A DNA stretch of 64,000 bases from Tichowtungia aerotolerans (GTDB lineage Bacteria; Verrucomicrobiota; Kiritimatiellia; Kiritimatiellales; Tichowtungiaceae). The position numbers were made by a program, and so were the translations under genes. The notes below the pieces were generated by a model, which ran no database searches, was not told the origin of the DNA, and was given only the letters and a program-made list of their open reading frames with translations. Positions 4,485-62,707 of this stretch are shown piece by piece; within the stretch, counting starts at the first letter, position 1; each line of letters starts with the position of its first letter. The DNA lies in contig NZ_CP047593.1 in the NCBI RefSeq assembly GCF_009905215.1, positions 3,166,900 through 3,230,899 of the forward strand. The letters run 5' to 3'.

Positions 4485-6083
4485 ATGAAGGCATATAAAT
4501 TTGCAGGCCTGTTTGTGATTCTGACAGGCTTCATGGCCAGCAGCTATTCCGCTGTGGTGACAAACTGGGTCCAGGATTCGGATTTCGAGCTTTTGTCATT
4601 AAGCACAGCACCGAATGTCAATACATCACCTTGGGTGGCGCAGGAGTCCAGTGCCTTTGGTGTGCAGCGGGAAGATGTGTTTGTACACAGTGGAACCAAT
4701 GCGGTGGCGTATCAGTATTACTTCAATACCGATCAGATTTATCAGTTTCTTCCGGAAGGATTAACGATTGACAGCAGCGTAATCTATGAAGCCCGTTTTT
4801 GGATGCGGCTGGATGAAAAATCAACCAATGTGGCTCATACCAATGAATCGCTGGTGCAGGTGATGATCAGCACTACAACAAACGGAGTTCATGGAAGCAC
4901 TTATGTGTGGAAAACTTCAGAATACGGACTGATTCCATCGGCTCCGTATCAATGGGAAGAAATGGTTGTGCATTTCCGGGGAAGCGATCTTTCGGATCGG
5001 GAGGGTGAGTATATCCGTCTGGCCATTAAAAACAGCAATGCAGGCTGTGAATACCGAGTGTTTATCGATGATGTTCAGTTTGGCGTTTATACGCCGGATA
5101 CTCCTGATTCCAATGTGTTGATTGGCTATTATGGGGCTGGTGGAGGAACAAATGATTATACGGCCGCAGGTATCGGCGGAGCGGTTTTTCTCGATAAAGC
5201 ATATCAGCTAAATGCAAATGGCGGATCTGACGATGGAACTTTCGGAAGTACCAATGTCGGCGCCTCTTTGGAATATTCTGCATATGAAGTAAGAATTGGC
5301 AGCGACCCGGTAAGCAACATAAACCAGCAGGTTGGATTCAAAATCGTGAATAATACCGGAGCCCCGCTTCAGCTTGATTCCATCAGCTTTGATTATGCCC
5401 CGTGGTGGGCGGAATCGCCTCAGGATGTTGACCTGCTCTATACCTGGGGATCTCTGGGCGGCATCTCAAATGACGCGGTGATCAACTCAACAAGCGGAAT
5501 GGTGAATCTGGGGGCCAATAAAGGGGACTATTACGATTTTGACTGGTCATTGACAGGCTTGCCGGATCGGGTTTTGGCTGACGGAGAAACCGCGGCATTT
5601 GCCCTGAAGGCATCCAATGCAAGTGGAATTTGGGCCAGTGGTGCATTCGACAATATTGCTATTCTGGGCGGCGCTTATGAAGGTGCCGGTTATGAAGCCT
5701 GGGCGGTTGAAAAGGATCTGATCGGTGGACCGACAGACGATGATGACGGGGACGGGATCGATAACCTGACGGAATATGCCCAGAACGGCGATCCGAACAA
5801 TGCCGCAGATACGGGGACCTCTCCCGCTATGGGAATGTCGCTGACGGCTGATGGCACAAACTGGATTGAGTATGTATACCTCAAGCGGGTGTCTTCCGAT
5901 AATGGTTTGACTTATGCTCTGGTCCAGAATCAGGATCTGGTGAGCGGAACATGGACGAATCATGGCGATATTGTTGAAGTGGGAGAAAGTGCTCCGGCCG
6001 GTGATTTTTCAACGGTCACCAATCATGTTCCAACTGACGGAAAGGCTCAGGAATTCATTCGTCTTTTGATTGAGGCGCAGTAA
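4485..6083 (+). CDS. Secreted accessory protein: binding module, GAFDNIA module, C-terminal cassette
   Basis: A 532-residue exported protein with signal peptide MKAYKFAGLFVILTGFMASS and a strong ribosome site (AAGGAGG) before ATG 4485. Modules in order: an N-terminal jelly-roll-like module (about 25-200, with the NVAHTN signature shared with its neighbours), a GAFDNIA module (about 205-395), a calcium-loop segment DDDDGDGIDNLTEYA at about 420, and a C-terminal beta domain ending EFIRLLIEAQ. No catalytic motif is visible. It follows the hydrolase by 63 bases and shares two of its modules, so it probably binds the same polysaccharide or the cell surface (inference). The protein at 25412-26929 has the same last three parts and likewise sits beside a copy of the hydrolase. 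Confidence 0.75.
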   Translation: MKAYKFAGLFVILTGFMASSYSAVVTNWVQDSDFELLSLSTAPNVNTSPWVAQESSAFGVQREDVFVHSGTNAVAYQYYFNTDQIYQFLPEGLTIDSSVIYEARFWMRLDEKSTNVAHTNESLVQVMISTTTNGVHGSTYVWKTSEYGLIPSAPYQWEEMVVHFRGSDLSDREGEYIRLAIKNSNAGCEYRVFIDDVQFGVYTPDTPDSNVLIGYYGAGGGTNDYTAAGIGGAVFLDKAYQLNANGGSDDGTFGSTNVGASLEYSAYEVRIGSDPVSNINQQVGFKIVNNTGAPLQLDSISFDYAPWWAESPQDVDLLYTWGSLGGISNDAVINSTSGMVNLGANKGDYYDFDWSLTGLPDRVLADGETAAFALKASNASGIWASGAFDNIAILGGAYEGAGYEAWAVEKDLIGGPTDDDDGDGIDNLTEYAQNGDPNNAADTGTSPAMGMSLTADGTNWIEYVYLKRVSSDNGLTYALVQNQDLVSGTWTNHGDIVEVGESAPAGDFSTVTNHVPTDGKAQEFIRLLIEAQ

Positions 6084-13088: not shown

Positions 13089-13925
13089 ATGAGAGTTGAT
13101 ATGAAAAAGATGATTTGTATCGTTGCTGCGCTTGCGGCACTAAACAGTCCCGGTGCGGAAAAACTGCCGCAACCGGATCAAACCGTTGTCTATAAAACAA
13201 CTCCGCAGGGGGAACTGAAACTGCATTTCTTTTTTCCGCCGGAATACAATAAGGATAAAAAAACGCCGTCCATTGTGTTTTTTCATGGCGGCGGATGGCA
13301 GACTGGCGGGCCGTCGCAGTTCTACCGGCAGAGTCGTCATTTTGCAGATCGCGGAATGATTGCGGTTTCAGCGGAATACCGGTTGGGAAAAAAGCATCAG
13401 ACGACTCCTGTCGAATGCGTTCAGGACGGCAAATCCGCTGTGCGCTGGCTGCGGGCGCATTCAGAGGAATGGGGGATCGACCCCGACCATCTGGCCGCCG
13501 GCGGAGGATCTGCTGGTGGACATGTTGCCGCCGCCACCGCTATGCTGACCGAATTTGACGATCCGTCCGTCAGTTGTCGCCCCGATGCACTGGTTTTGTT
13601 CAATCCGGTGATCAACAACGGGCCCGGTGGGTATGGGCACGGACGGGTTTCCAATGTTTGGAAAGATTTTTCACCGTTGCACAACATTCGCAAAAACAGC
13701 CCGCCCGCCATTTTTATGCTGGGTACCAAAGATAAATTGATTCCTGTTTCGACCGGAAAAAAGTTTAAACAACTCATGGAGGAATCCGGTTCTTCCTGTG
13801 AATTAATTCTTTATGAAGGGCAGGAGCACAGCTTTTTCAATAAAGCAAAATTTGAGGAAACCCTGCAAGCCGCGGACCGTTTCCTGACCTCTCTCGGGTA
13901 TCTTCCGAAGCCGCCACAACCTTAA
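13089..13925 (+). CDS. Secreted alpha/beta-hydrolase carbohydrate esterase
   Basis: A 278-residue exported esterase of the BD-FAE/acetyl-xylan-esterase-like (HSL) type. The oxyanion motif is HGGGW (from H66), the nucleophile S141 lies in GGGSAGGH, the likely acid is the Asp in GTKDKLIP and the catalytic His is in GQEHSF. It should remove acyl groups, probably acetate, from sugars. ATG 13101 gives a clean signal peptide starting MKKMICIV with GAGAG-like spacing from GAGAG at 13092; ATG 13089 adds four residues. It sits 27 bases after a sulfatase and probably shares its transcript. A second, longer esterase of the same fold is at 17104-18429. Confidence 0.88.
   Translation: MRVDMKKMICIVAALAALNSPGAEKLPQPDQTVVYKTTPQGELKLHFFFPPEYNKDKKTPSIVFFHGGGWQTGGPSQFYRQSRHFADRGMIAVSAEYRLGKKHQTTPVECVQDGKSAVRWLRAHSEEWGIDPDHLAAGGGSAGGHVAAATAMLTEFDDPSVSCRPDALVLFNPVINNGPGGYGHGRVSNVWKDFSPLHNIRKNSPPAIFMLGTKDKLIPVSTGKKFKQLMEESGSSCELILYEGQEHSFFNKAKFEETLQAADRFLTSLGYLPKPPQP
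13649..13663 (+). repeat. Palindrome TTCCAA-TGT-TTGGAA
   Basis: A perfect 6-3-6 inverted repeat inside the esterase gene, read as SNVWK. Confidence 0.9.
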
Positions 13926-13949
13926 AAATGCATTTCGAGAGGAATCCTA

Positions 13950-13969
13950 CCTAGAGGTTTGGCTAGTAG
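13950..13969 (+). repeat. 20-bp direct repeat, divergent copy C
   Basis: CCTAGAGGTTT is identical to the consensus; the second half differs (GGCTAGTAG for CACCAGTAG). It lies between the esterase stop and the next sulfatase start. AATACGGAG follows at 13973, as it does downstream of copy A. Confidence 0.55.
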
Positions 13970-14013
13970 AACAATACGGAGCGAAGTGTGTACATTACTT
14001 AACGTCAGTCCGG

Positions 14014-15669
14014 ATGAGGACTGTTCAGATAACCGAAATGAGACTGCTGATGAAAAAAACAATTTCCAGTGCATTGCTGACGGCCGCATTGTGTGTGCAG
14101 GCGGATCAGCCCAACCTGATCGTGATTATGTGCGACGACCTTGGTTATGCGGATGTCGGGTTTAACGGATGCAAAGACATTTCGACGCCCAATATCGACC
14201 GCATTGCGCAGGGGGGAGTGCGCTGTACCAGCGGCTACGCAACCTATTCGGTCTGCGGTCCGAGCCGCGCCGGCTTCATGACCGGTCGCTATGAACAGCG
14301 CTTCGGTTTTGAACGCAACCCCCAGTATCAACCCGGAGATCCAAATATGGGTCTCCCCAAGGACGAACGAACCATCGCTGAAACACTCAAACCGGTCGGA
14401 TACACCTCCGGCGTTATCGGTAAATGGCATCTGGGCGCGCACCCGGGCAATCATCCGCTCAATCGCGGGTTCGACTTCTTTTATGGACATCTCGGCGGCG
14501 GGCACCGCTATTTCCCGGAAGAGCTGACGCTTCAGGACAGCTATGCTGCAAAAAATGAAGAGGAGAGCTATAAAACATGGATTCTTAGAAATCACGAGCC
14601 GGTGCCGCCGGAAAAATATCTTACCGATGCTTTTTCCGATGCGGCAGTTGAATTTGTAACAGAAAACCAAAAGCAGCCGTTTTTCCTCTTCCTTTCCTAC
14701 AACGCGCCGCACAACCCGTTGCAGGCGACCGAAAAATATTTGTCGCGTTTTCCAAACATTGAAAATGAAAAACGAAAAACCTATGCCGCCATGATCAGCG
14801 CCGTTGACGATGGTGTGGGGCGGGTGCTCGACACGCTTGAGGATCGGAATCTCAGTAAAAAGACGATTGTTTTCTTTCTGTCGGATAACGGCGGCCCTGA
14901 AAGCAAAAATGCATCGGACAACGGCGCGCTGCGCGGCGGAAAAGGGGATGCCTGGGAAGGCGGTTTTCGCGTTCCGTATGCCGTCATGTGGACGGGTACT
15001 GTTCCGGACGGGACTGTTTATGATCAGCCGGTCAGTTCGCTGGACGTTCTGGCAACGATTGCCGACCTGTCCGGTGCGCCGGAAGATTCCTCCCGCCCGC
15101 TCGATGGGACAAACCTGATTCCTTACCTGACCGGGAAAAATACCGGAGCTCCGCATGAAGCCATTTATCTGCGCAAGTTCGATGGCGGTCAATACACGGT
15201 GCGCAGCGGCGACTATAAAATGCTTATCCCGTGGCAGGGAGCAGCTGCCCAGCTTTACAATCTGGAGAAAGACATCGGAGAAGAGCAAAATATTGCCGCG
15301 CAGCATCCCGAAACGCTTCAGGAGCTGGAAACGCTTCGCCGCAAATGGGACAGCCAGCTGGTTGAGCCGCGCTTTCTTGGACTGATCCATACCGACGCAT
15401 GGCAGAAAAAACTCAAGCGCCAAGACGCCGCCAAACAGAAATCAAAAACCGAATCCAAATCGAAATGGGACTGGTTCGCGGCGCTCGATAAAAACAAAGA
15501 CGGAAACGTCACTGAAAACGAGTGGGTCGACTGGTCCATGCATGAGGCCCGGCGGAGGGGGCGCAGTACGACAGAAAAACAGCAGAAACAGTATTTTTCA
15601 AATCGTGATCTGAATGGCGATGGCGTGATTCCGCGCGAAGAATTTGAAGCAGGGATGGAAAAGAAGTAA
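14014..15669 (+). CDS. Secreted S1 sulfatase with C-terminal EF-hand tail
   Basis: A 551-residue sulfatase. The formylglycine Cys is C81 in SVCGPSRAGF. Other family elements are IMCDDLGYADVG near the N-terminus, GKWHLG and FLSDNGGPESK. After the sulfatase fold a Lys-rich linker and WDWFAALDKNKDGNVTENEW begin a tail with two EF-hand loops (DKNKDGNVTENE and DLNGDGVIPREE). The same tail occurs on the sulfatase at 20298, and a relic of one lies at 29998. The tail may bind calcium for stability or surface attachment (inference). The start could be 14014, 14038 or 14050; the last gives the shortest signal peptide (MKKTISSALLTAALCVQA). The stop overlaps the next start (TAATG), so translation is probably coupled. 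An imperfect palindrome (TTCCAAACATTGAAA) is at 14750. Confidence 0.92.
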   Translation: MRTVQITEMRLLMKKTISSALLTAALCVQADQPNLIVIMCDDLGYADVGFNGCKDISTPNIDRIAQGGVRCTSGYATYSVCGPSRAGFMTGRYEQRFGFERNPQYQPGDPNMGLPKDERTIAETLKPVGYTSGVIGKWHLGAHPGNHPLNRGFDFFYGHLGGGHRYFPEELTLQDSYAAKNEEESYKTWILRNHEPVPPEKYLTDAFSDAAVEFVTENQKQPFFLFLSYNAPHNPLQATEKYLSRFPNIENEKRKTYAAMISAVDDGVGRVLDTLEDRNLSKKTIVFFLSDNGGPESKNASDNGALRGGKGDAWEGGFRVPYAVMWTGTVPDGTVYDQPVSSLDVLATIADLSGAPEDSSRPLDGTNLIPYLTGKNTGAPHEAIYLRKFDGGQYTVRSGDYKMLIPWQGAAAQLYNLEKDIGEEQNIAAQHPETLQELETLRRKWDSQLVEPRFLGLIHTDAWQKKLKRQDAAKQKSKTESKSKWDWFAALDKNKDGNVTENEWVDWSMHEARRRGRSTTEKQQKQYFSNRDLNGDGVIPREEFEAGMEKK

Positions 15670-48349: not shown

Positions 48350-49258
48350 ATGAAACCGATCGTTGTTGTGGGAAGTTCGAATACTGACTTGGTTGCCAAT
48401 GTGGAACGTTTGCCGGGCGAAGGGGAAACTGTGATGGGGACCAGTATGAGTAAATTTGCCGGGGGAAAAGGAGCCAACCAGGCCGTTGCCGCAGTTCGTA
48501 CTGGAGCCAAGGTTGCTTTTGTCGGAGCGGTGGGTACTGATGCTTTTGGTGACGAAACCGTGCAGGCCTTTGAAGAAGACGGTCTGGATCTCCGTTTTCT
48601 GAAGCGTACAGAAGAGGCCCCTTCCGGCACTGCTCTGATCTGTGTCGACCAGAACGGAAGAAACCAGATTGTGGTTGTTCCGGGCGCGAACGGACTGGTT
48701 GGGACGGAGCAGATTGATTCGGTTGATTTTTCAGAGTTCGGCATTGCGGTTTTTCAACACGAAATTCCGCATGAAGCCGTTTGGCATGGCCTTAAGAAGG
48801 CCCATGCCGCCGGATGCATTACCATTTTAAATCCTGCGCCGGCGGCTGAGGTGCCGGCTGAAATTCTGACCATGCTTGATTATCTGGTTCCCAATGAGCA
48901 TGAACTGAAAATCATTTCAGAAAAAGGTGGGTCCTTTGAGGAGATGGTGGAAGAAATGCTCAGCAAAGGTGTGAAAAACCTGATTGTTACGCTTGGGGCT
49001 GAAGGGGCTGCCTGCTTCAGTCGGGACGGGAACGTTGCGGTCCCGGCTCCGGATGTTGCGGTGAAAGATACGGTTGGTGCCGGTGATTGTTTTGTCGGAG
49101 TTTTTGCTGCGTCCTTATATAAAGGCTGTGATTTAGAACAGAGTCTCCGTTATGCTGCCGCGGGAGCATCTCTTTCGGTTACAAAGGTTGGTGCTCAGGC
49201 ATCTTATGTCGGCTGGGACGAAATCGAAATATTAGCTGCTCGCGCGGTCGTTTCCTGA
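48350..49258 (+). CDS. rbsK: Ribokinase (PfkB family)
   Basis: A 302-residue cytoplasmic PfkB-family sugar kinase of normal ribokinase length. Signatures: GSSNTDLVANVERLPGEGET at the N-terminus, AGGKGANQAVAA (first PfkB signature), NPAPAAEVP, VTLGAEGA and DTVGAGDCFVG (second signature) with catalytic base D246. It phosphorylates D-ribose or a related sugar using ATP. ATG 48350 follows GAGGAG by 5 bases. It stands alone between a tRNA and a long gap, so its link to the polysaccharide genes is only positional. Substrate specificity is not proven by the motifs. Confidence 0.93.
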   Translation: MKPIVVVGSSNTDLVANVERLPGEGETVMGTSMSKFAGGKGANQAVAAVRTGAKVAFVGAVGTDAFGDETVQAFEEDGLDLRFLKRTEEAPSGTALICVDQNGRNQIVVVPGANGLVGTEQIDSVDFSEFGIAVFQHEIPHEAVWHGLKKAHAAGCITILNPAPAAEVPAEILTMLDYLVPNEHELKIISEKGGSFEEMVEEMLSKGVKNLIVTLGAEGAACFSRDGNVAVPAPDVAVKDTVGAGDCFVGVFAASLYKGCDLEQSLRYAAAGASLSVTKVGAQASYVGWDEIEILAARAVVS

Positions 49259-49310
49259 AATCAGTCAATGCTGTTGGTGTATTCTGCTGGCAGTTATTAA
49301 ATTGGTGTCG

Positions 49311-49339
49311 CAGGGTGCTGACAGCCGTTCAGCATCCTG
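49311..49339 (+). terminator. Probable terminator hairpin after ribokinase
   Basis: An 11-bp stem with one G-U pair (CAGGGTGCTGA / TCAGCATCCTG) and a 7-base loop, 52 bases after the stop. T-rich sequence follows only further on, so efficiency is uncertain. Confidence 0.5.
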
Positions 49340-49649
49340 TGCTGCTTTCTGTATTGCTGGGCTTTTTGTGATTATACGAATCCGACGTTCGGTTGGCTTC
49401 GGGATAAGCTGGATAAGTCTATGGTAAAGGTGCTGTCAGCGCCGGTGGGCAATTCCATTGGTGGTGTTGCGGTATATCTTTGCAATCATACACGGCTGCG
49501 CGCTTCGTATGCTGTCAAAAGCTGAGTGCTGTGAAGCTTTTTCATTGATAAATGGTCGCCGTAGGCTTTGCCAACGCGTAGACGAAATGTATGCCGTTTT
49601 CATAAACGACTTTCAATTGACTTGCTGAATACGGTTATTTTGTGTTTTT

Positions 49650-49985: not shown

Positions 49986-52343
49986 ATGAAACAGGTCGCA
50001 GGAAAATTAGTGAAGCTTTTACTCGCAGTTGGTCCCGGTATTTTTGCAATTGGCTATACGGTCGGAACCGGCAGTGTTACCGCCATGGCCAAAGCCGGCA
50101 GCCAATTCGGGATGAAGCTGCTTTGGGTATTGGCTCTGAGCTGCATTTTTTCGTGGGTTCTGATGGAGGCTGCTGGACGATTTGCCCTTGTAAGTGGTGA
50201 AACTGCAGTGAATGGTTGCCGTAAACACTTGCCGGGCGGTAAGGGACTGGCTCTGTTGATGGTAATTGGTGTGGTTACAGGCCAGTGGTGCTGCCTTTCC
50301 GGTCTTGTCGGGCTTTCCTCCAGTGCCCTCTATGAAGGACTGCGTCTGTTCATTCCGTCGCTCACTGAGAACACCTATTGGCCGGTGCTGGGAATTGCGG
50401 CTACGCTGATGGTTCTTATGTATGCATTGCTTTGGCATGGCGGCTATTCCTTCTTTGAAAAGATCCTTGTCATTTTTGTGACAATCCTTGGGCTTTCTTT
50501 TATTGTTTCCATGTTTGTTGTTCTGCCTCCTGCTGGGGAAATTGCTGGAGGACTGGTTCCCCGTATTCCTAATGTGCCGGGAGCCGCCCTGATGGTCGCT
50601 GCATTTGTCGGGACGACAATGGCCGCGCCGACCTTTGTTGTACGTCCTCTTCTGCTCAAAGCCAAAGGGTGGGGAAGAGACGATGTGAAGCAGCAATCAG
50701 TTGATGCGTTTGCGGGCGCATTCCTCATGTTCATTGTCAGTGGTGCTGTTATGGCGTGTGCTGCCGGGGCGTTGTTCAGCCGTGGTCTCGAGGTGAATCA
50801 TGTGCTTGATATGGTTCACACTCTGGAACCGGTTGCCGGGAAATATGCTGTTTCTCTCTTTCTGGTCGGAACGCTCAGCGCGGGACTTTCGTCTGTTTTT
50901 CCAATCTGCATGGTTGCGCCACTGCTGATCAGCGACTATCGCAAAGGGGAATTTGACAGTCGTTCAAAACTTTTTCGGATTCTATGCGCTGTTGCCTGCC
51001 TGATCGGGCTGACAATTCCGATTCTCGGAGCCAATCCGATTGCCGCGCAGATTGCCACGCAGGTTTCTCAGGTTTTCATTCTTCCGCTGGTTATTGCTGT
51101 TCTGTTTGTTTTAGCCAACAAACGCGATCTGATGGGTTCTCATCGCGCGGGTCCGTTGCTCAATACAGGAATGATCGTGGCATTCGCTTTTTCGCTGGTG
51201 ATGTCGTTTCTGGCCGTCAAAGGACTGATTGGTTTTTTTAAACCATTGGAAAACGCGTCAACAGAACCGAAGTGGATGGTTTGCGTGACTGACCAGCGCT
51301 ACACGCAGGTTGATGGGGATGAACATGTCTATGAAGATGCCCAAGCCGGTGCGCTGGTTACGATGGATGTTTCGAGCGTCCCGCCAAAATCTTTCCAAAC
51401 ATTGGAAAATGTTCCCGCCAGCCTGATCGGCCCGCCGGTATCGGTTGCCGTTGCTCCGAACCAGAAGTTTGCTCTGGTGACTGGTGCCATGAAAGTGAAC
51501 CCGGAGAATTCAGCGGAGCAGATTCCAGATACAGTGCTCAGCGTAGTTCGGTTGATGCCCGGAGCTCCGGAAATTATTCAGCAGATCGAACTGGGTCTTC
51601 AGCCGTCCGGAGTGGAAATCAGCCGCGACGGAACGCGGGCGCTGGTCGCCAACCGCGCTGCGGGAAGCGTTTCTCTGCTGTCTCTCACTCCGGCCGGTCA
51701 AGCGGAGCTGCTCGATACTTTTGCGGTTGCTCCGCCGGAAAGCAGTGTGTCGCACGCGGCGTTTTCACCAGATGGAACCCGTGTGCTGGTGACGCTGAAC
51801 AAGGCAGGAAAAGTTCTCTTCTGTTCTTTGGAAAATGATCAGATGAAGGTTCTGCAGCAAGTGACCTGTGGCGACGGTCCGTATTGCGCGGAGTTTGCTC
51901 CGGACGGAAAGAGTGCGGTTATCGGAAATGTATACGGAGGAACCCTGAGCTTATTGAAGATCAGTGATCAGACTGCTGATGTTGTTGATACGATTCCGGT
52001 CGGAATTCTTGCTGAAGGAATTGATATCAGTCCGGATGGGCTGTGGTTGGTGGTGAACTGTCTGGAAAACACCAACATGACATCAGATAATCCGGCTCAT
52101 CGGGAGTCTGCGATGGTTGTTCTGTTCCAAAAACAGGGCGCAACTTTTGTGACGATGGATTCCATTCGTGTTGATGGCATTCCGCAGGCGGCAGTGTTTA
52201 CTCCGGATGGACAGTATGTGGCGGTCGCCAGCAACGAAAAACAGGCGATCCGGTTTTATAAACTGGAAACTGCTCAGTTGAAGGAAACGAATATAGAAGT
52301 TTCGACCTCCGGCGGTCCGGCCGCCGTGCGGGTTTCTATGTAA
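49986..52343 (+). CDS. Nramp-like membrane transporter fused to a seven-bladed beta-propeller
   Basis: A 785-residue single ORF. Residues about 1-420 have 11 hydrophobic spans in the Nramp (APC-fold) arrangement. The canonical helix-1 DPGN and helix-6 MPH metal motifs are absent: the equivalent places read GYTVGTGSVT and GTTMAAPTFV. From about residue 425 (KWMVCVTDQRY) a YncE/lactonase-like propeller begins, with repeated PDG blade motifs (ISRDGTRALVAN, FSPDGTRVLVTL, FAPDGKSAVIG, ISPDGLWLVVN, FTPDGQYVAVAS). With 11 spans the propeller should lie on the opposite side from the N-terminus, probably in the periplasm (inference). The substrate is unknown; metal transport should not be assumed. Good ribosome site AAGGAG. 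Confidence 0.82.
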   Translation: MKQVAGKLVKLLLAVGPGIFAIGYTVGTGSVTAMAKAGSQFGMKLLWVLALSCIFSWVLMEAAGRFALVSGETAVNGCRKHLPGGKGLALLMVIGVVTGQWCCLSGLVGLSSSALYEGLRLFIPSLTENTYWPVLGIAATLMVLMYALLWHGGYSFFEKILVIFVTILGLSFIVSMFVVLPPAGEIAGGLVPRIPNVPGAALMVAAFVGTTMAAPTFVVRPLLLKAKGWGRDDVKQQSVDAFAGAFLMFIVSGAVMACAAGALFSRGLEVNHVLDMVHTLEPVAGKYAVSLFLVGTLSAGLSSVFPICMVAPLLISDYRKGEFDSRSKLFRILCAVACLIGLTIPILGANPIAAQIATQVSQVFILPLVIAVLFVLANKRDLMGSHRAGPLLNTGMIVAFAFSLVMSFLAVKGLIGFFKPLENASTEPKWMVCVTDQRYTQVDGDEHVYEDAQAGALVTMDVSSVPPKSFQTLENVPASLIGPPVSVAVAPNQKFALVTGAMKVNPENSAEQIPDTVLSVVRLMPGAPEIIQQIELGLQPSGVEISRDGTRALVANRAAGSVSLLSLTPAGQAELLDTFAVAPPESSVSHAAFSPDGTRVLVTLNKAGKVLFCSLENDQMKVLQQVTCGDGPYCAEFAPDGKSAVIGNVYGGTLSLLKISDQTADVVDTIPVGILAEGIDISPDGLWLVVNCLENTNMTSDNPAHRESAMVVLFQKQGATFVTMDSIRVDGIPQAAVFTPDGQYVAVASNEKQAIRFYKLETAQLKETNIEVSTSGGPAAVRVSM
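51393..51407 (+). repeat. Palindrome TTCCAA-ACA-TTGGAA
   Basis: A perfect 6-3-6 inverted repeat near the start of the propeller part of the fusion gene, read as FQTLEN. A degenerate copy (TTTAAACCATTGGAA, 51237) lies at the transporter/propeller junction. Confidence 0.9.
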
Positions 52344-52485: not shown

Positions 52486-54486
52486 ATGAACATTAAATTT
52501 TTTGAGATATTGATTGTTCTGCTGATGACCTTTTCCGCTGTAGCGGAGACATGGCTGCCGGCAGTGTTTTCAGATCACATGATTTTTCAGGCGGATCAGC
52601 CGATCCATATTTGGGGAACGGCTTCTCCAAATGAGCGGATTGCTGTGAAGTTTGATGAACAGCACGCAGAAACCATTGCGGACAAAGACGGCGCCTGGTC
52701 CATTTATTTAGATGCTCAGCCCGCATCTTCTATCCCGTCGGAATTGGAAGTGCGCTCGCTTTCCAATGATTGGAAAAAAACGTTCAGCGACGTGCTGGTC
52801 GGCGAAGTGTGGATGGCCTCCGGGCAATCGAATATGCAATTCACCTTCCGAATGCTGGATCGGCTAAACGAAGCGGTTGCGCAGCCGGAAAACAAGATGC
52901 TTCGTCTGTTCAACACGCCGCGCGCGGTTTCGGCAAAGGTTAAAGACGATACCGGTGGACAGTGGGAAATTTCCTGTCCGGCCGCGCTGATGGATTTTTC
53001 GGCGGTGGCCTATTATTTTGGCAGTCGTCTCCAGCAGGATCTCGATGTGCCTGTTGGCATCATCGTCAGTGCCTGGGGCGGAACGAAAGTGGAAACATGG
53101 ATGCCGATGGAGGATCTGAAGCAGGTTCCGGAATTGCATGACGGATTGGTGCAGTACGAACGACTGGTTTCTGATCCGTTTGCGAAAGCCAAACTGACCG
53201 CACAGCAGGCGGCGTGGCAGAATCTGGGCTATCAGGACCCGGGCAACCATGGCTATCTTTACGGATACGCCGATCCGGATGCCGATCTCTCCGGGTGGAA
53301 GCCGGTTTCTGTGCCGACGTCGATCGAGTCGGTTTTGGAAGAATCGAAAGACGGTGCGTTCTGGTTTCGCCGGACAGTCCGGATTCCCGACGAATGGATC
53401 GGACAGCCGCTTACGCTGAAGCTGGGCGTACTTGATGATATGGACCAGACGTATGTGAACGGGATTCCGGTTGGTTCCACCGGGCAGGAGACGGCCGGGT
53501 TCTGGATGACGCCGCGGTCGTATTCCGTTCCGGAATATGTTGTGGCTGGTAATGAGCTGACCGTGGCCGTTCGCGTATTTGATATGGCCGGTCAGGGCGG
53601 ATTTCTTTCAGGCCCGGACTTGTTGAAAATTGCTCTGGTGGGTCAGGAGCAGAATGCGGTGTCGCTGGCCGGAAATTGGCAGTTTAAAGCCGAGTATGTT
53701 TTTAACGATGATGATCCGCTGCGCCGGCAGTTTAATCAGCGTTGGGGCGTTCCGAATACGCCGCGCGGGCCTGCGAACCTGTACAATGCAATGATAGCGC
53801 CGTTTCTTCCGTTTTCGCTGAAGGGTGTCATCTGGTATCAGGGCGAATCCAACGCCAGTGAACCGGAACTCTATTCCTGTTTGTTCCCCGGCATGATCGA
53901 GTCTTGGCGCCGTAAATGGAATCAGCCGGAGATGCCGTTTATTTATGTGGAACTGGCTTCATTCATGGCCGCTCAGACTCAGCCGTCTGAAGAAGATGGC
54001 TGGGCCTGGCAGCGCGAAGCACAGCAGTCGGCACTGGCGCTGTCGAACACCGCGGTGGCCACCGCCTTGGATGTTGGCGATGCAACCAACATTCATCCCG
54101 AAGATAAAGCGACGGTTGGGGATCGGTTGGCACTGGCTGCGAATGGACTGGTGTATGGCCGTTCCGGTCTTTGTCAGAGTCCGCGATATGCGAGTTCTGC
54201 CGTCAGAAAGGATCGGGTCTATCTTTCGTTTAAGGATGTAGAAGGCGGGTTTGAACTGCGCAGTGGAACAGAGCCGCAGAGTTTTGCAATCTGCGGAAAA
54301 GACCGTGTCTGGCACTGGGCCGAAGCAAAGATCGACAGAGAGCAGATTGTTGTGTGGAGTCCGGATGTTCCGGAGCCGGTTGCAGTGCGTTATGCATGGG
54401 CCAACAATCCGAATATTAATGTCTACAGCCGGGCAGGACTGCCGTTGCTGCCGTTCCGGACGGATCGATTTCCGCGGGGCCGATAG
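52486..54486 (+). CDS. Secreted sialate O-acetylesterase-like SGNH esterase
   Basis: A 666-residue exported protein of the sialate O-acetylesterase family. After the signal peptide the N-terminal beta domain has LPAVFSDHMIFQ. The SGNH nucleophile is S115 in ASGQSNMQF; further blocks are VSAWGGTKVETWMP, IWYQGESNA and the catalytic Asp/His region DVGDATNIHPEDK. A jelly-roll insertion (about 270-400, with GAFWFRRTV and DDMDQTYVNG) interrupts the hydrolase as in family members. It removes O-acetyl groups from sugars; in this setting the substrate is more likely an acetylated polysaccharide than sialic acid. It follows the Nramp-like gene by 142 bases without a clear terminator. Confidence 0.9.
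   Translation: MNIKFFEILIVLLMTFSAVAETWLPAVFSDHMIFQADQPIHIWGTASPNERIAVKFDEQHAETIADKDGAWSIYLDAQPASSIPSELEVRSLSNDWKKTFSDVLVGEVWMASGQSNMQFTFRMLDRLNEAVAQPENKMLRLFNTPRAVSAKVKDDTGGQWEISCPAALMDFSAVAYYFGSRLQQDLDVPVGIIVSAWGGTKVETWMPMEDLKQVPELHDGLVQYERLVSDPFAKAKLTAQQAAWQNLGYQDPGNHGYLYGYADPDADLSGWKPVSVPTSIESVLEESKDGAFWFRRTVRIPDEWIGQPLTLKLGVLDDMDQTYVNGIPVGSTGQETAGFWMTPRSYSVPEYVVAGNELTVAVRVFDMAGQGGFLSGPDLLKIALVGQEQNAVSLAGNWQFKAEYVFNDDDPLRRQFNQRWGVPNTPRGPANLYNAMIAPFLPFSLKGVIWYQGESNASEPELYSCLFPGMIESWRRKWNQPEMPFIYVELASFMAAQTQPSEEDGWAWQREAQQSALALSNTAVATALDVGDATNIHPEDKATVGDRLALAANGLVYGRSGLCQSPRYASSAVRKDRVYLSFKDVEGGFELRSGTEPQSFAICGKDRVWHWAEAKIDREQIVVWSPDVPEPVAVRYAWANNPNINVYSRAGLPLLPFRTDRFPRGR
52761..52775 (+). 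repeat. Palindrome TTCCAA-TGA-TTGGAA
   Basis: A perfect 6-3-6 inverted repeat in the esterase gene, read as SNDWK. Confidence 0.9.
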
Positions 54487-54817: not shown

Positions 54818-57800
54818 ATGAGACGTTTTATTATTGCCGGGTTACTTGTTGGTTTATGTCCTGCGGCGAGATCAGCCGATATTTACAAGGCGAATAACAC
54901 AACGGCACTGGATCAGTCCGGAAGCTGGACCGGCGGGGCTGTTCCCGGCTCGACGGATACCGCGGTTTATACAGGACTTGGCGCTCTTTCGACGGCGATG
55001 GGGTCGGATCTGTCATGGTACGGAATTTCTTCGACCGATAACTCCGGAATATGGACCATCACGGGCAGCGAAACGCTGACGATCGGAGCAGGAGGAATTA
55101 CAACCGGCGGCGGCACATCCGGAGGAGTGAAAGTGAATGCGAACATCCATCAGGTGGCCGACGGAGAGTACAATCTGGGGACGGGTCGCAACTTTACTTT
55201 GAACGGCTCCTTATCCGGCTCTAGTGCGATTGAAAAGACCGGAAACGGGGCCTTGATCCTTGTCGGTGATAACTCGTCGTATTCCGGAACGATGACTCTT
55301 TCTTCCGGCATCATTGCTGTGCGCAGTGGTACGGCTCTGGGGTCAAGCTCGCTGATTTTGAATGGAGGATTGCTGAATGCTTATGCCTCCAGCCAAACGC
55401 TGGCGAATGACATGACGCTTTCTGCCGACAGTATCGTGCAGGCGGTCAATGACAGCCGGAACCTGACTCTCACCGGTACTATTGATGGTTCCTCTGCGCT
55501 GACGGTGCGCGGTGCGGGCGTTGTGACCCTGTCCGGAAACAATACGTATGCCGGTGGCGTCAGTATGGGAACCGATATTGGAACAACGTTGGTGGTTGGT
55601 AACAACGGTGCTCTGGGAAGCGGCGTTCTGACGGTGAGCGGGAATGGCGGAATCATTGGCGCGTCGACCGGGACAACTCTAGCTAATGATGTGACTCTGG
55701 ACGCTGATTTGGAAGTAACCGATGCGGGCGCGAATCTGTTTTTTACGGGAACACTCAGCGGCAGCGGCTCACTGACGAAAAACGGAATCAGAGCGTTACT
55801 TCTGGCTGGGGATAATACCGGTTTTTCGGGAGGGATCACTCACAATACCGGAGTGCTTTCCGTAGGGAACAATAACGGGCTTGGAAGCGGTGTGCTGACG
55901 TTGAACGGCGGAACGCTGAATGCCTATGCAACCGACCGGGAACTGGCAAATGATATGGTTGTGACAGCAGACAGCAAGCTGGAGGCGGTCAACAGCAGTC
56001 GCGACTTAACGCTTTCCGGGACTATCAGCGGTTCGGGCGCTGTCATCAAATCCGGAGCGGGAACCGTAACCCTGAGTGGTGTCTGCACCTACACGAATTC
56101 GACCACAGTCAGTGACGGAACCCTGCAGATTGACGGGACCGTTGTCAGCCCGGTTACGGTTACGTCCGCCACAACTCTCAGCGGAAGCGGTCTGGTGGAT
56201 TCAGTGACTCTGCAGAGCGGGGCGACATTGGATGTCGGTACGTTGACGGTTAACGACTCGCTGGTTCTGGAAGCCGGTTCCTGTGCAATGGTGGAGATTG
56301 CCGGAGCATCCGGCTATGACGTGCTGACGGGCAGCGGGGCTGTGCTGAACGTTGCAGGTGATTTTATTTTTGATTTCTCCGGGAACACCACGGTTCAGGC
56401 AGGCGACTCGTTTACAGTTCTGCAGGGGTGGGCATCGGTGTTGGATAACGGATTGTCTGCAGCCACAATGGGGCTGGATGAAAACCTGACGATTGATATT
56501 TCCGCGCTGGCATCCAACGGACAAATTACCGTTGTTGCGAACGACGCCGGAAAGGTTGTCAAAGCAACCGGGCTGCTGTATGCGGGGCTGTATACCGGAA
56601 CCGACATGGCGACCGGAATCTATACGTTCACGGACCCGACCCGTCCGGTGGAAACCGCCGAGAGAATCGGGACCATTTCTTCTCCGGCGCTGACGTACCG
56701 GAATGCCGGGTTTGACGGCGAGCAGTATCTGATGGTCGACCGCGCCGGCGGCAAGCTGTATGAGACGACCGGAACCTCGCCGCTCTTCAAGCTGCTCAGC
56801 GGAAGCTACAGCTATGCATCGTGGCACGGCATTGACCGCTGCAACGGCGTGTATTACGGAATTTATGACGGCGACGGCATGGAGGGCGCAGGGCTGTATG
56901 TGTTTGCCGATCCGGCCGATCCGGAGGGGACCAGCGTGAAGCTGTGCACCAACCAGGTGTTTTCTTCCGAGGTTTGGAAAGATGTTGCCTTTGACGGCGA
57001 ACGCTACCTGTTTGTGCGCTCGGATGCCGAAGGCGGAACGCCGGGGATCTATCAGTATGATCCGGAAACCGATCAGTTTACACTGCTCAGTGGCGCGGAG
57101 ACTTATTCCGACTGGGAAGGGCTGGCGGTGTTCGATTCGGACATTGCGCCGCTGCGCAACCGCAAAGTGTATCTGCTCCTGTTCGGCGGGCAGTCCAATG
57201 CGCTGGGCTGGGGATATCACCAGTATCTTCAGGACCAGAATGATCCGCTGCAGTTTGTCCAGGAAGACATCGATTTTCTCTATCACAAACCGTACAGCAG
57301 TGCGGGTATGCTGCCGGAAAATACACTGTTGAAGCTTCAGTCCGGCAACTCAAACACGCAGGTGAAACAGCCCGGCGAATACCCGGCTCTGACCAACGCG
57401 CCGATCAGCCGCTTCGGTCCCGAGATGAGTTTTGCTCGGGTTGTGCGCGACCGGATTGCGGTTCCCGACGCCAACGTGGCGGTCATGAAATATGCATACG
57501 GCGGGTCCGGGCTGTACACAACCGATCAGTGGTGGCCTGACGGGACCGCCGACCGCTCTGCCGACGGAACACTGTATCAGATTTTCCAGCAGACGGTCTG
57601 GCGGACCGTGGCTGCGCTGAAAAATAAATATCCTTATTCGGACGTTGAGATCCTCGGCATGGGCTGGGTGCAGGGTGAGTCGGATGCGATGAACGGCGCT
57701 GCCGACAGCTATGAGGAAAACCTGACCCGCTTCATTGAGGATGTGCGTGGTACGTTTAATACAAACCTGACGTTTGTTCTCAATAAGCTGTCGCCGAACC

Positions 57801-58390
57801 AGTATCAGAACGATACGAACAGTGGCTCTTATGCCAGCTGGACGGTCGTGCGTGCGGCGCAGCAGGCGGTTGCCGATGCGGATCCGAACGTGGGCGCAAC
57901 CGAAACGATTGGCGATAACTACCTGACATCGGTCGGCCTTTCGGAAGGAGTGCTTCACTATAAAACTCCGTCATTGCTGCAGATTGGCGAAGATCTCGGT
58001 AATGCGCTGTTTGATCTGTGCGGACTGGATTCAGATGAAGACGGTCTGCCGGATGCGTGGGAATCTGAACGCTTCGGTGATCTGAGCACGTCCGACGGAA
58101 CCGGCGACACAGACGGGGATGGCGTGAGTGATCGGGACGAGTATGGTGCAGGAACGGATCCGGCCGATGCATCTGATTATCTGAACCTTTCGCTCAGCTC
58201 TTCTTTTTCTGCGAGCTGGCCGGCTCAAAAAGATATTCGCTATCAAATGATGAAGTCCACGAATCTGCTTTCGTGGACAGAAATTGGTGATCCTGTTTTG
58301 TTTCGTAAAACCAATGGGATTGCCGATTTCGATTTTTCTGAATATGCCCAGACCAATCCGGCCGGGTTCTTCCGCATTGTGGCGAATTGA
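54818..58390 (+). CDS. Secreted beta-helix passenger protein carrying a SASA acetylesterase domain
   Basis: A 1190-residue exported protein. After the signal peptide about 530 residues are autotransporter-type strand repeats (SGSGSLTKNG, GAGTVTLSGVCTYTNSTTV, LNGGTLNAYATD). Residues about 590-780 resemble propeller or Kelch-like strands (FDGEQYLMVDRAGG, FDGERYLFVRSD). At about 785-1080 lies an SGNH/SASA esterase: nucleophile S793 in GGQSNALGWG, with MGWVQGESDAM further on. Two calcium-type loops (DSDEDGLPDAW, DTDGDGVSDRDEY) and a C-terminal domain ending FFRIVAN close the protein. No beta-barrel domain follows, so it is not a classical autotransporter. It probably displays a deacetylase at the cell surface (inference). 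The gene has its own likely promoter. Confidence 0.82.
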   Translation: MRRFIIAGLLVGLCPAARSADIYKANNTTALDQSGSWTGGAVPGSTDTAVYTGLGALSTAMGSDLSWYGISSTDNSGIWTITGSETLTIGAGGITTGGGTSGGVKVNANIHQVADGEYNLGTGRNFTLNGSLSGSSAIEKTGNGALILVGDNSSYSGTMTLSSGIIAVRSGTALGSSSLILNGGLLNAYASSQTLANDMTLSADSIVQAVNDSRNLTLTGTIDGSSALTVRGAGVVTLSGNNTYAGGVSMGTDIGTTLVVGNNGALGSGVLTVSGNGGIIGASTGTTLANDVTLDADLEVTDAGANLFFTGTLSGSGSLTKNGIRALLLAGDNTGFSGGITHNTGVLSVGNNNGLGSGVLTLNGGTLNAYATDRELANDMVVTADSKLEAVNSSRDLTLSGTISGSGAVIKSGAGTVTLSGVCTYTNSTTVSDGTLQIDGTVVSPVTVTSATTLSGSGLVDSVTLQSGATLDVGTLTVNDSLVLEAGSCAMVEIAGASGYDVLTGSGAVLNVAGDFIFDFSGNTTVQAGDSFTVLQGWASVLDNGLSAATMGLDENLTIDISALASNGQITVVANDAGKVVKATGLLYAGLYTGTDMATGIYTFTDPTRPVETAERIGTISSPALTYRNAGFDGEQYLMVDRAGGKLYETTGTSPLFKLLSGSYSYASWHGIDRCNGVYYGIYDGDGMEGAGLYVFADPADPEGTSVKLCTNQVFSSEVWKDVAFDGERYLFVRSDAEGGTPGIYQYDPETDQFTLLSGAETYSDWEGLAVFDSDIAPLRNRKVYLLLFGGQSNALGWGYHQYLQDQNDPLQFVQEDIDFLYHKPYSSAGMLPENTLLKLQSGNSNTQVKQPGEYPALTNAPISRFGPEMSFARVVRDRIAVPDANVAVMKYAYGGSGLYTTDQWWPDGTADRSADGTLYQIFQQTVWRTVAALKNKYPYSDVEILGMGWVQGESDAMNGAADSYEENLTRFIEDVRGTFNTNLTFVLNKLSPNQYQNDTNSGSYASWTVVRAAQQAVADADPNVGATETIGDNYLTSVGLSEGVLHYKTPSLLQIGEDLGNALFDLCGLDSDEDGLPDAWESERFGDLSTSDGTGDTDGDGVSDRDEYGAGTDPADASDYLNLSLSSSFSASWPAQKDIRYQMMKSTNLLSWTEIGDPVLFRKTNGIADFDFSEYAQTNPAGFFRIVAN

Positions 58391-59044: not shown

Positions 59045-60151
59045 ATGAGAGAAAATAAAAAAAACGGCCGGGTGGTAACGTTTGGTGAGGTGATGTGCCG
59101 GTTTTGTCCTCCGGACCATTTGCGGTTTGAGCAGGTGTCGCCAGGACCCTGGGATCTGACTTTTGGAGGGGCAGAAAGCAGTGTGGCTGCTTCGGTGGCA
59201 AGATTCGGAGGAACGTCGGAGTTTGTTACGGCATTGCCGGATCATGCAATCGCCGACAGCTGTCTTCGTCAGTTGACTTCTCTGGGCGTGGAGACTCGGC
59301 ATGTTTTTCATGCGTTGAACAGTCGGATGGGCGTTTATTTTGTGGAACGTGGTGCCAACCAGCGAGCCAGTCAGGTGATTTATGACCGAACCCCCTCGGC
59401 TTTCTCGCAAGTCAGCGGTGATGAATTTGACTGGGCCGAAATTTTTGAAGGGGCTTCCTGGTTTCATACAACCGGGATCACGGCTGCGGTTTCTGAAGGG
59501 GCGGCCCAGGCCGCCTGCCTTGCGGTTCGCAAAGCGAAAGAGGCCGGCTTGACCGTTTCTGTGGACCTGAACTTCCGGGCCAAGCTGTGGAAGTGGAAAG
59601 TCGGACGGACAGCTGAAGAGCTGGCTCAGGAAATTATGCCGAAAATACTGCAGTTTACGGATGTGGTGATCGGTAATGAGGAGGATGCTCAGAAGACGCT
59701 GGGTATTTCTGCTGAAAATATAGATGTGGAGTCGGCCAATCTGAATGCTGACGGGTTTGCATCTGTCGCCGAAGAAATTATGCGGCGGTTTCCAAGCATC
59801 GGAGCGGTTGCTACGACACTGCGCGAGAGTATTTCTGCAACCCATAATAACTGGGGCGCTGTCCTATCGGTTCGCAACAGCGATCCGGTGTTTTCCCCCA
59901 TGAAAAACGGAGATTATACGCCGTATGAAATCCATTCTATTGTGGATCGTGTGGGAGGAGGAGACGCCTTTGCCGGTGGGCTGATTTATGCGCTGAATTT
60001 CGGCGAGTTCGGCAACGAGCAGGCCGTTCTGGATTTTGCTTCTGCCGCTTCCTGTCTGGCACATTCAATCAGCGGAGATTTTAACTTTTCAACTCGTGAA
60101 GAAGTTGAACGCCTGGCTGACGGCATCGGCAATGGGCGGGTTGTGCGGTGA
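59045..60151 (+). CDS. kdgK: PfkB-family sugar kinase, 2-dehydro-3-deoxygluconokinase-like
   Basis: A 368-residue cytoplasmic kinase. The N-terminus VVTFGEVMCRF and FGGAESSVAASVARFGG are the first half of the PfkB fold in the KDG-kinase group; SVDLNFRAKLW and the active-site DRVGGGDAFAGGL with catalytic D307 complete it. KDG kinases phosphorylate 2-keto-3-deoxygluconate or -galactonate, intermediates of uronate and 3,6-anhydrogalactose breakdown. That would suit a pathway fed by alginate, pectin or agar/carrageenan-type polymers. No KDPG aldolase lies within the window. It stands alone with an AT-rich upstream region and a shared dyad element. Other PfkB substrates cannot be excluded. Confidence 0.85.
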   Translation: MRENKKNGRVVTFGEVMCRFCPPDHLRFEQVSPGPWDLTFGGAESSVAASVARFGGTSEFVTALPDHAIADSCLRQLTSLGVETRHVFHALNSRMGVYFVERGANQRASQVIYDRTPSAFSQVSGDEFDWAEIFEGASWFHTTGITAAVSEGAAQAACLAVRKAKEAGLTVSVDLNFRAKLWKWKVGRTAEELAQEIMPKILQFTDVVIGNEEDAQKTLGISAENIDVESANLNADGFASVAEEIMRRFPSIGAVATTLRESISATHNNWGAVLSVRNSDPVFSPMKNGDYTPYEIHSIVDRVGGGDAFAGGLIYALNFGEFGNEQAVLDFASAASCLAHSISGDFNFSTREEVERLADGIGNGRVVR

Positions 60152-60220: not shown

Positions 60221-62707
60221 ATGAAGGCAATAAGAGTCTTGCAGATTATCATAGTCGGTACCGTGGCGTTGGTTGCTTCTGCTCAGGCTGATACGGCATG
60301 GAATGCCGATGTTTCCATCGATGCAGCATGGAGTGTCGCTGGCAACTGGAGTGCCGGAGTTCCGGATTCCAATGATGTGGCATATTTTACAAACACACAG
60401 GCCACGACGTATAGTGTAGATGTGGACAGCGCGGCTCAGGCGCATAAACTGCATGTTACACAGGGGTACACTTTTGACGGGGCCGGTTCGCTTACTCTGA
60501 TCCGTAACGATGCGTCCAGTCTGAATCAGACACTGGGGAATTATTCTCCATCCACGACCTTAACCATTAATACAGACGTAACCATCAACCAGCTGGGTGC
60601 CGGAGTGGCTGAGGTTTACAACCAGTACGCCGGTGGAAACTTGATCCTGAACGGCAGTTTTACGCAGACCGGAAATAACTACATTAACTTGTCCGGCCTG
60701 GGAACGATTGAGCTGAATGGCGATATTACGTTGGTTGACCGTTTTCGGTTTGGAAAAGATGGGCTGAACGTTGTCATCGGCGGCAGTGGAACAACTACCT
60801 CATCGGCGGCCTGGACGTTTGCGCGGGCAGCCAACCTGTATCTGAACAGAACCGGTGCTTACACCACGGCTGCTGAGTATCTGTATATGGAGAGAGCGAT
60901 GCTTTTCCTCGGTGCGGATAATGCCCTCGCAGCCGGAACGGATGTTCGAATGAAAGCCAATTATGGAACAGGAGGAATTACCGCACAGGGATTCGACCAG
61001 GCATTTGGCTGGCTGGATGTGGATGCAGACGCGTTTTTTGATCTGGGAGGAACGGACTCAGTGTGGACTTTTGAAGATTCATCGCTGGCGATTTCCGACT
61101 GGGCATCTGGGGTTGTTCTGTACATTACCAATGCCCCGAGTGCGACCATTCGGTTTGCGATAGACAGTGGTTCCGGTGGAACCGGACTGACTGAAATCCA
61201 GATCGGAAAAATCTCGTTGGATGGAGTCGTGCTGACTTCGAATGACACCACGGTTGCTGATGGGTATCTTTATATTACCCCTTTGCCGGCAGCCGCTGAA
61301 ACATCATGGAACAGTGATGTGTCTGAAGGCGCGGCCTGGGAGACTGCCGGGAACTGGAGCGATGGGGTTCCGGGCAGCGGCAGCGTGGCGTATTTTACAA
61401 ATACGCAATCGACGACATATACTGTGACGGTAGACAGTGCCGCTATGGCCAATCAGCTGTATGCGGACCAGGCATATACATTTGATGGAGCGGGATCCAT
61501 TACCCTGATTCGTAATGATGCGGCCAGTATCAATCAGGCTCTTGGAAATTATTCGTTGTCCACCACGTTAACATTGAATACGGATGTGACGATCAATGAG
61601 CTCGGTGCCGGAGTTGCCGAAATTTATAGTCAGTATGCGGGAGGACGTCTGGTCTTGAACGGCAGCCTGACCCATACCGGTAATAACTATATGAACCTGT
61701 CCGGGGATGGAACGATTGAGCTGAATGGAGACATCGATTTGGTGGACCGTTTCCGGTTCGGAAAAGACGGACTGAATGTTGTCATTGGCGGAAGCGGAAC
61801 GACGGCTTCGTCGACTGCATGGACCTTTGCGCGGGCGGCAAATCTGTATTTGAACCGGACGGGAGCCTATACGACCGATCAGCAGTATTTGTATATGGAA
61901 AAGGCAATGGTAACTCTCGGAGCGGATCAGGCATTGGCAGAAGGCACCGATGTCCGTATGAAAAACAGCGTCGGAACCGGCGGAATTACCGCACAGGGAT
62001 ATGACCAGAACTTTGGATGGCTGGATGTGGATTATGATGCCTTCTTTGACTTCGCCGGCAGCGATTCAGTCTGGACGTTCGAGGATTCTTCTCTGGCTGA
62101 ATCCGCGTGGGCTACCGATGTTGTTCTGTATATTACCAATGCGCAGAATGCGACCATTCGGTTTGCCATCGACAGCGGTTCAGGCGGAACCGGTCTGAGT
62201 GACTCGCAGATCGAAAAGATTTCACTAAACGGCACCCTGCTGACGACAAACGATACGAGCGTGAGCGATGGATATTTGTACATTGCGAACGGAGCAGGAT
62301 CAGAGGCTCTGTATAACATGTGGGCTGGTGAGTATGAGCTCACTTCGCCGGAGTCGGATTTGTTGTCTGACCCGGACGGGGACGGCGCAAACAATCTGCT
62401 CGAGTATGCTCTGGGCGGCAATCCGACCAACTCGGATGCATCCGCAATTCTTCCGGTATATTCTGTTACCAATCAGAATGGAACGAACTGGCTGGAATAT
62501 GTCTATTTTCGTCGTCTGGATGCTGCAGATCGCGGCATCAACTATACGGTTGAAAAAAACAGTAATCTGCTGTCGGTTGAGTCATGGAGCACCAATGGTA
62601 TTGCTGAAACAAGTGCGCCTGTGGATGCCGAATTTGAATCCGTTACCAACCGGGTTTCAACAGGAGAGGCTAATGCTCAGTTTATGAAGCTGAATGTGGA
62701 GTTTTAA
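60221..62707 (+). CDS. Secreted two-repeat beta-helix-like protein with C-terminal cassette
   Basis: An 828-residue exported protein; AAAGAGG-type ribosome site and signal peptide precede two copies of a repeat of about 330 residues (about 25-355 and 356-690). Each starts with TxWNxDVSxxAAW and has GNWSxGVP, DGLNVVIGGSGTT, ARAANLYLNRTGAYTT and FEDSSLA in the same order; the copies are close enough to suggest recent internal duplication. A calcium loop DPDGDGANNLLEYALGG and a C-terminal domain ending FMKLNVEF follow. No catalytic residues are recognised; the repeats resemble autotransporter-like or S-layer-like strands, so binding or a surface structure is likelier than catalysis (inference). 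The next gene has the same layout. Confidence 0.75.
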   Translation: MKAIRVLQIIIVGTVALVASAQADTAWNADVSIDAAWSVAGNWSAGVPDSNDVAYFTNTQATTYSVDVDSAAQAHKLHVTQGYTFDGAGSLTLIRNDASSLNQTLGNYSPSTTLTINTDVTINQLGAGVAEVYNQYAGGNLILNGSFTQTGNNYINLSGLGTIELNGDITLVDRFRFGKDGLNVVIGGSGTTTSSAAWTFARAANLYLNRTGAYTTAAEYLYMERAMLFLGADNALAAGTDVRMKANYGTGGITAQGFDQAFGWLDVDADAFFDLGGTDSVWTFEDSSLAISDWASGVVLYITNAPSATIRFAIDSGSGGTGLTEIQIGKISLDGVVLTSNDTTVADGYLYITPLPAAAETSWNSDVSEGAAWETAGNWSDGVPGSGSVAYFTNTQSTTYTVTVDSAAMANQLYADQAYTFDGAGSITLIRNDAASINQALGNYSLSTTLTLNTDVTINELGAGVAEIYSQYAGGRLVLNGSLTHTGNNYMNLSGDGTIELNGDIDLVDRFRFGKDGLNVVIGGSGTTASSTAWTFARAANLYLNRTGAYTTDQQYLYMEKAMVTLGADQALAEGTDVRMKNSVGTGGITAQGYDQNFGWLDVDYDAFFDFAGSDSVWTFEDSSLAESAWATDVVLYITNAQNATIRFAIDSGSGGTGLSDSQIEKISLNGTLLTTNDTSVSDGYLYIANGAGSEALYNMWAGEYELTSPESDLLSDPDGDGANNLLEYALGGNPTNSDASAILPVYSVTNQNGTNWLEYVYFRRLDAADRGINYTVEKNSNLLSVESWSTNGIAETSAPVDAEFESVTNRVSTGEANAQFMKLNVEF

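Follow-up and report, generated by a model that had tools for sequence, protein, structure and literature searches.

An Nramp-fold carrier fused to a beta-propeller belongs to an Nramp branch probably linked to sugar-acid use

The window is the whole stretch of Tichowtungia aerotolerans DNA that was analysed (64,000 nucleotides). Positions 49986–52343 of its + strand form a single open reading frame of 785 residues with no internal stop codons, which encodes an Nramp-like carrier with a C-terminal beta-propeller. The Nramp-fold membrane domain (residues 1–418, 49986–51239) contains a match to Pfam Nramp, PF01566, at residues 31–389 (E 1.9e-62, 211.8 bits against a cut-off of 29.8). The lactonase-type propeller domain (residues 430–785, 51273–52340) contains a match to Pfam Lactonase, PF10282, at residues 532–773 (E 4.2e-9, 36.5 bits against a cut-off of 21.7). 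In the AlphaFold2 model of the full chain, the membrane domain has 11 helices, the last of which spans residues 390–418, and the strands of the propeller begin at residue 430. Confidence in the model is moderate (mean pLDDT 71.7), its alignment having comprised only 14 sequences; side-chain arguments were not drawn from the model, and the first propeller blade is badly modelled. Residues 6–421 superpose on the Nramp structures of DraNramp and EleNRMT with a Z score of about 40 over about 380 residues, and residues 424–785 superpose on seven-bladed lactonase/YVTN propellers with Z scores of 34–37. A preliminary description, made from the letters alone, had proposed an Nramp-type membrane half without the DPGN and MPH motifs and a seven-bladed propeller after helix 11; the Pfam match, the GTGS and AAP found in place of the two motifs, and the model agree with it. 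The sequence, motifs, clade, neighbourhoods, recurrent fusion and splitting, fold and predicted topology reported here were obtained by computation.

The carrier is predicted to adopt an N-in/C-out topology, which would place the propeller in the periplasm, as had also been suggested earlier. The predicted loops carry 13 lysine or arginine residues inside and 5 outside. Close free homologues of the propeller bear lipoprotein or Sec-type signals, which also supports a periplasmic location.

The next gene downstream on the same strand (52486–54486) encodes a SASA-type carbohydrate esterase of 666 residues (PF03629, E 1.3e-21). Three further genes on the + strand encode a 1190-residue protein with PATR repeats and a SASA esterase domain (54818–58390), a 2-keto-3-deoxygluconate (KDG) kinase of the pfkB family (59045–60151), and an 828-residue protein with no Pfam match (60221–62707). 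The kinase was assigned from KDG kinase models, including NCBIfam NF041633, which it matches with an E value of 1e-127 at a score below the cut-off of that model. It lies 6.7 kb downstream of the fusion gene, beyond the 6-kb cut used for the neighbourhood counts below. No KDPG aldolase gene occurs in the window; two are located elsewhere in the genome. Another pfkB gene, at 48350–49258, was considered as a KDG kinase and rejected, being a ribokinase (TIGR02152, above cut-off). Between this ribokinase-like gene and the fusion gene there is a weak terminator-like hairpin (49309–49341, + strand), and the hairpin count is not above chance. The region 11217–45718 encodes seven or more sulfatases, two GH2 enzymes and a number of large unknown proteins, indicating a sulfated polysaccharide.

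The fusion is real and recurrent, and was confirmed in three genomes. The search for other proteins with both domains, which had been proposed as a check, found full-length homologues at 65% identity in G164 (locus L056) and in a Coraliomargarita genome (L044, the same genome as G039); the full fusion was absent from the plasmid collection searched. In the window, the two domains are joined by the linker KPLENASTEPK (residues 419–429, 51240–51272), and standalone relatives of the carrier end at or near this point. A run of seven T residues (51233–51239) at the junction codons Phe417–Phe418 immediately precedes the linker, and a one-base error here would part the halves. The run is followed by AAA, and a −1 slip would produce IGFF and a stop codon, which gives exactly the carrier without the propeller. 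A programmed frameshift at this run was nevertheless treated as a coincidence, because the run is missing from the junctions of both other fusions. The linkers of L044 and L056 are unrelated to each other and to that of the window. A joining artefact was rejected because these two loci carry the same fusion.

The two halves also occur as separate genes. In L191, a locus of a Kiritimatiellales genome (that of L033), a same-strand cluster encodes both halves, as a free propeller and a standalone carrier, along with a KDG kinase, a 1191-residue SASA protein, a BNR protein and several proteins that are unknown or esterases. The preliminary description had advised a look for separate neighbouring transporter and propeller genes in relatives. 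The free propeller, which has a lipoprotein signal, is 75–76% identical to that of the window, the standalone carrier is 82% identical, and the KDG kinase is 72% identical. The 1190-residue protein of the window is 56% identical to the protein at 4919–8494 of L191, located there between the free propeller and the carrier, and the C-terminal 147 residues of the 828-residue protein are 52% identical to the product of 13403–15358. In G229, from the genus of G164, the carrier and the propeller are encoded on different contigs. Separate reading frames in relatives had been named in advance as evidence against the fusion; they were indeed seen in L191 and in L057/L058, but they do not undo a fusion that three genomes possess.

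A first propeller tree contained very long branches and was unresolved; in the tree rebuilt without those branches, the window copy forms a pair with the free copy of L191 (support 100/99), and the two remaining fused copies cluster with the free L058 copy (97/100). A single clade of fused propellers was rejected (p-AU 3e-36). The carrier–propeller pair was thus joined at least twice, or was joined once and split at least twice. On either history, the occurrence of separate genes and fusions among relatives shows that the two halves are functional partners.

The carrier half belongs to a clade in which the metal site of Nramps has been lost. Metal-transporting Nramps are characterized by DxxN in helix 1 together with A/CxxM in helix 6, NRMTs by DxxG with TxxA/T, and two His residues are conserved in helix 6b (PMC8806188). 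In the window protein, helix 1 carries GTGS (residues 27–30, 50064–50075, + strand), and this motif is found in all 64 clade members compared, whereas DPGN is found in all 18 canonical Nramps. The helix 6 motif is GTTMAAPTFVVR (residues 209–220, 50610–50645, + strand), with AAP at residues 213–215 in place of MPH. Its last residue, Arg220, occupies the position of the second helix-6b His; Arg is present here in 64/64 clade members and is absent from all 37 further Nramps in the comparison, and His is present in 18/18 canonical Nramps. Position 215, which is Pro in the window protein, is variable in the clade and is never His. Neither DxxN nor A/CxxM occurs in any of the 64 members, and equivalents of D56, N59 and M230 are absent from the clade. 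Helix 6 of the window protein fits the NRMT pattern TxxA (T210 and A213), but the helix-1 Asp is replaced by Gly and the fourth residue by Ser. The clade and the NRMTs lie on separate tree branches. In a tree of 62 Nramps, obtained by a quick search and with some long branches outside the clade, the 24 members then known fell on one side of a branch with an SH-aLRT of 99, apart from both canonical Nramps and NRMTs.

The missing DPGN, to which the preliminary description had drawn attention, is thus real, but it is not special on its own, because several unrelated Nramp branches of the phylum lack it as well. Loss of DPGN was therefore rejected as a unique hallmark of the clade; its true signature is the pair of Arg and GTGS. 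The other DPGN-less Nramp-like branches observed in the same phyla carry GAGS, GAGD, GVSH and similar sequences (L069–L074, L076 and L078).

Searches of genome collections located clade members in Kiritimatiellota, Verrucomicrobiota, Planctomycetota and Bacteroidota, including 52 of the 299 genomes sampled from Flavobacteriaceae, the family of G295. Among 5426 E. coli genomes searched at the DNA level, 546 (~10%) carry the E. coli member. RefSeq annotates members of the branch as divalent metal transporters, and the E. coli protein as an "Nramp family divalent metal transporter". In the literature searched, mostly papers outside subscription journals, there was no description of this clade or of an Nramp–propeller fusion.

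Genes for sugar-acid catabolism recur around the clade. A fixed set of probes (gluconokinase, 6PG dehydrogenase, KDG kinase, KDPG aldolase, UxaC and UxuA) was applied within a radius of 6 kb. At least one of these core enzymes, nearly always encoded on the same strand, was found near 25 of the 64 clade members and near 1 of 34 other Nramps (Fisher p 7e-5, which overstates the significance since the probes were partly picked from clade loci and related loci are not independent). The argument draws less on the count than on how varied the arrangements are. The arrangement KDPG aldolase–KDG kinase–carrier occurs in L056, L057, L035 and L165. Gluconokinase and 6PG dehydrogenase accompany the carrier in L037, L038, L041–L043, L158 and L159, and gluconokinase alone does so in L040. 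A glucuronate isomerase and a mannonate dehydratase-like protein are encoded in L143 and L144; the order in L143 is RraA-like protein, glucuronate isomerase, SDR, carrier and mannonate dehydratase-like protein, and L196 resembles it on sequence inspection. Mannonate dehydratase and mannonate oxidoreductase are found in L077, a KdgF-like cupin with alginate lyases in L161 and L166, and NanA-, NagA- and NagB-like proteins in L129. The earlier suggestion of a sugar-derived substrate is therefore well supported by the relatives, and the window itself contains the KDG kinase gene.

Several further loci were observed. A second kind of clade member occurs in a genome of the same order (G1482), within an SDR/UxuA-like/UxaC-like/RraA-like/carrier block at 6890–12100 of L196, in which the names were given by sequence inspection. 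In E. coli SK1144, the clade member WP_023141302.1 is part of a five-gene chromosomal block between dnaB and qorA (L047, 4277–11264). The block encodes a LacI regulator, a CoA-transferase, an enoyl-CoA hydratase, the Nramp-like carrier and a fumarate-reductase-like flavoprotein, and it looks like an organic-acid pathway. An 834-kb E. coli "plasmid" record (CP054241.1, L045), in which the Nramp-like gene is split by a frameshift, also contains dnaB, alr, dusA and a quinone oxidoreductase gene and is probably a piece of chromosome. In Winogradskyella eckloniae (G300:C24), an Nramp-like protein from outside the clade directly adjoins a PL6 alginate lyase (L080, 3200–6828). This could be another, independent instance of alginate use involving an Nramp-like protein, and the association of Nramps with alginate is therefore not exclusive to the clade.

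On these grounds, the branch is probably linked to sugar-acid use rather than to metals. For the window protein, we consider it fairly probable that it is an Nramp-fold importer of sugar-acid anions, not of metal, whose propeller, in the periplasm, would process that same ligand or present it. We infer the substrate class, the role of Arg220, the lactonase activity and the direction of transport as follows. The protein would be a secondary carrier of the inner membrane with the Nramp (LeuT-type) fold, importing a monomeric sugar-acid anion derived from polysaccharide, most likely 2-keto-3-deoxygluconate or a close aldonate or uronate. Products of polysaccharide breakdown would reach the periplasm, where the propeller would bind a sugar acid or its lactone and open or present it. 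Held over the entrance by helix 11, the propeller would most likely hydrolyse a lactone, so that the free acid is formed immediately before it is taken up. The GTGS break of helix 1 and the invariant helix-6b Arg may bind the carboxylate, the acidic and thioether metal ligands having gone, and the anion would then be taken up by alternating access, with GTGS and Arg220 replacing the metal site. Inside the cell, the KDG kinase of the window and a KDPG aldolase encoded elsewhere in the genome would complete catabolism.

Lactone hydrolysis by the propeller is possible, judging from the closest solved folds, which include 6-phosphogluconolactonases and the periplasmic gluconolactonase PpgL (Z 35–37). 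However, the propeller could instead bind or sense a ligand as a tethered domain, or act as a scaffold for partners in the outer membrane, and we regard this as a serious possibility. The nearest sequences are YVTN S-layer and hydrazine-synthase-beta propellers, followed by putative 6-phosphogluconolactonases, and no NCBIfam propeller model matches the domain above its cut-off. Canonical seven-bladed lactonases have an Arg–His pair; this pair was not evident in the window propeller. On the other hand, D436, R557, Y633, E677 and Q734, together with GPP, EG and PQ motifs, are conserved across 14 diverse homologues, which suggests that a ligand site has been kept. In addition, free homologues are encoded beside HpaI-type 2-keto-3-deoxy-acid aldolases, both in this genome (L059, assigned by NCBIfam) and in G010 (L066, by sequence inspection). 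A family of proteins of 540–560 residues, with no Pfam match in L059 (LLFGNDTTHITSC...), was also observed to recur beside the free propeller in two genomes (L059, 5918–9238; L205, 1800–3446; L206, 6484–8160).

It is unlikely that the carrier still imports a metal (Mn2+, Fe2+ or Mg2+) through a rebuilt site, lying in sugar-acid operons because divalent metals are required by enzymes such as mannonate dehydratase and alginate lyases, with the propeller as an accessory. The fold and family are those of Nramps, the NCBIfam Nramp_1 score of the fusion protein is 83 against a cut-off of 50, and the protein is the sole Nramp of this 3.88-Mb single-contig genome. Moreover, the rebuilt site of EleNRMT still moves Mg2+ (PMC8806188), and YcsG has been reported as a Mn importer (PMC10448178). 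However, NRMTs retain the helix-1 Asp, whereas the clade has Gly in 64/64 members and an added Arg. In at least one relative, the genome encodes a canonical DPGN Nramp as a separate gene (G290, L068), and further Nramp-like genes occur in most of the relatives' genomes. The recurring neighbours follow a pathway and not a metal need.

The carrier might also serve another organic anion, such as an acyl acid, sialic acid or an amino-sugar acid, the KDG and gluconate genes reflecting only part of the clade. In a Flavobacteriaceae subgroup (L127–L138), the carrier gene is flanked by NagA and NagB genes, and in L129 also accompanied by a NanA-like lyase gene, suggesting an amino-sugar acid or sialate as substrate there. 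The E. coli member lies between the enoyl-CoA hydratase and the fumarate-reductase-like flavoprotein, after the CoA-transferase, and the neighbours in the window include the SASA-type esterases, whose name derives from sialate. For the window protein we hold this to be quite unlikely, because its nearest relatives (L035, L056, L057, L165 and L191) share a KDG kinase, usually together with a KDPG aldolase. A sequencing or assembly error as the source of the fusion is very improbable: an additional T in the run, which lies exactly at the junction, would terminate the carrier at the point where its relatives end, but two other genomes contain the fusion with unrelated junctions, and, unlike its close free copies, the propeller of the window lacks a signal peptide.

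Across the clade, the substrate may be wider than sugar acids or specific to subgroups, because L063–L065 have no informative gene context and the E. coli member is encoded with CoA-ester enzymes. We put forward more tentatively that the whole branch, including the member found in about 10% of E. coli genomes, could import carboxylated sugars or organic acids through a GTGS/Arg site, and that in some members a built-in periplasmic lactonase would let a single polypeptide both open the lactone and take up the product. If the members are sugar-acid carriers, the present annotations are wrong in many genomes, and a missing importer for the use of uronate, KDG or gluconate would be found in degraders of alginate and algal glycans. 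The Nramp fold would also provide a test case for the change of a cation site into an anion site by few replacements (Asp to Gly, Met to Ala and His to Arg). In the fusion we would have a rare example of a carrier into which a periplasmic enzyme, or a domain presenting the ligand, has been built, and the existence of free and fused versions permits a direct experimental comparison.

The window protein shares the 11-helix fold and the Pfam Nramp family with canonical Nramp/MntH proteins (SLC11; DraNramp, MntH), but it differs from them in lacking DPGN and AxxM, in having Arg for the second helix-6b His, and in its sugar-acid neighbours. The best sequence match in the PDB is the NRMT EleNRMT (7qia, E 1.6e-19), which has the same fold and likewise has Thr for the Ala and Ala for the Met of AxxM; however, EleNRMT keeps the helix-1 Asp and has Asn at the position of the clade's Arg. 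Among NRAMP-family proteins, PxpT of C. glutamicum is required for growth on 5-oxoproline (PMC13274462), whereas its homologue YcsG, encoded in an organic-acid operon, is claimed to be a Mn importer (PMC10448178). PxpT and YcsG, which belong to 5-oxoprolinase operons, resemble the window protein as Nramp-family carriers encoded with organic-acid catabolism, but they have no propeller. A fold match to 9a52_A has a Z score of 39, whereas the PDB search gave no sequence match to them, and no pxp genes were seen around the clade members inspected. The only relevant paper on Nramps together with alginate, gluconate or uronate in the literature searched was PMC6431674, where alginolytic clusters of Alteromonas sp. 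76-1 contain an Nramp gene along with DehR and KdgF and the gene is labelled only as a metal-ion transporter. This likeness, an Nramp gene within alginate clusters, is one of gene context, clade membership aside. Among propellers, six-bladed Ca-lactonases are known from a Cu/Zn-SOD–propeller fusion (PMC12362111), a paper that supplied no active-site residues for the window propeller. The 6-phosphogluconolactonases of PF10282 and PpgL (6igb) share its seven-bladed fold, and PF10282 matches it above cut-off; in contrast to them, at 17–20% identity, the window propeller is nearer to the YVTN and hydrazine-synthase-beta propellers and is fused to a carrier.
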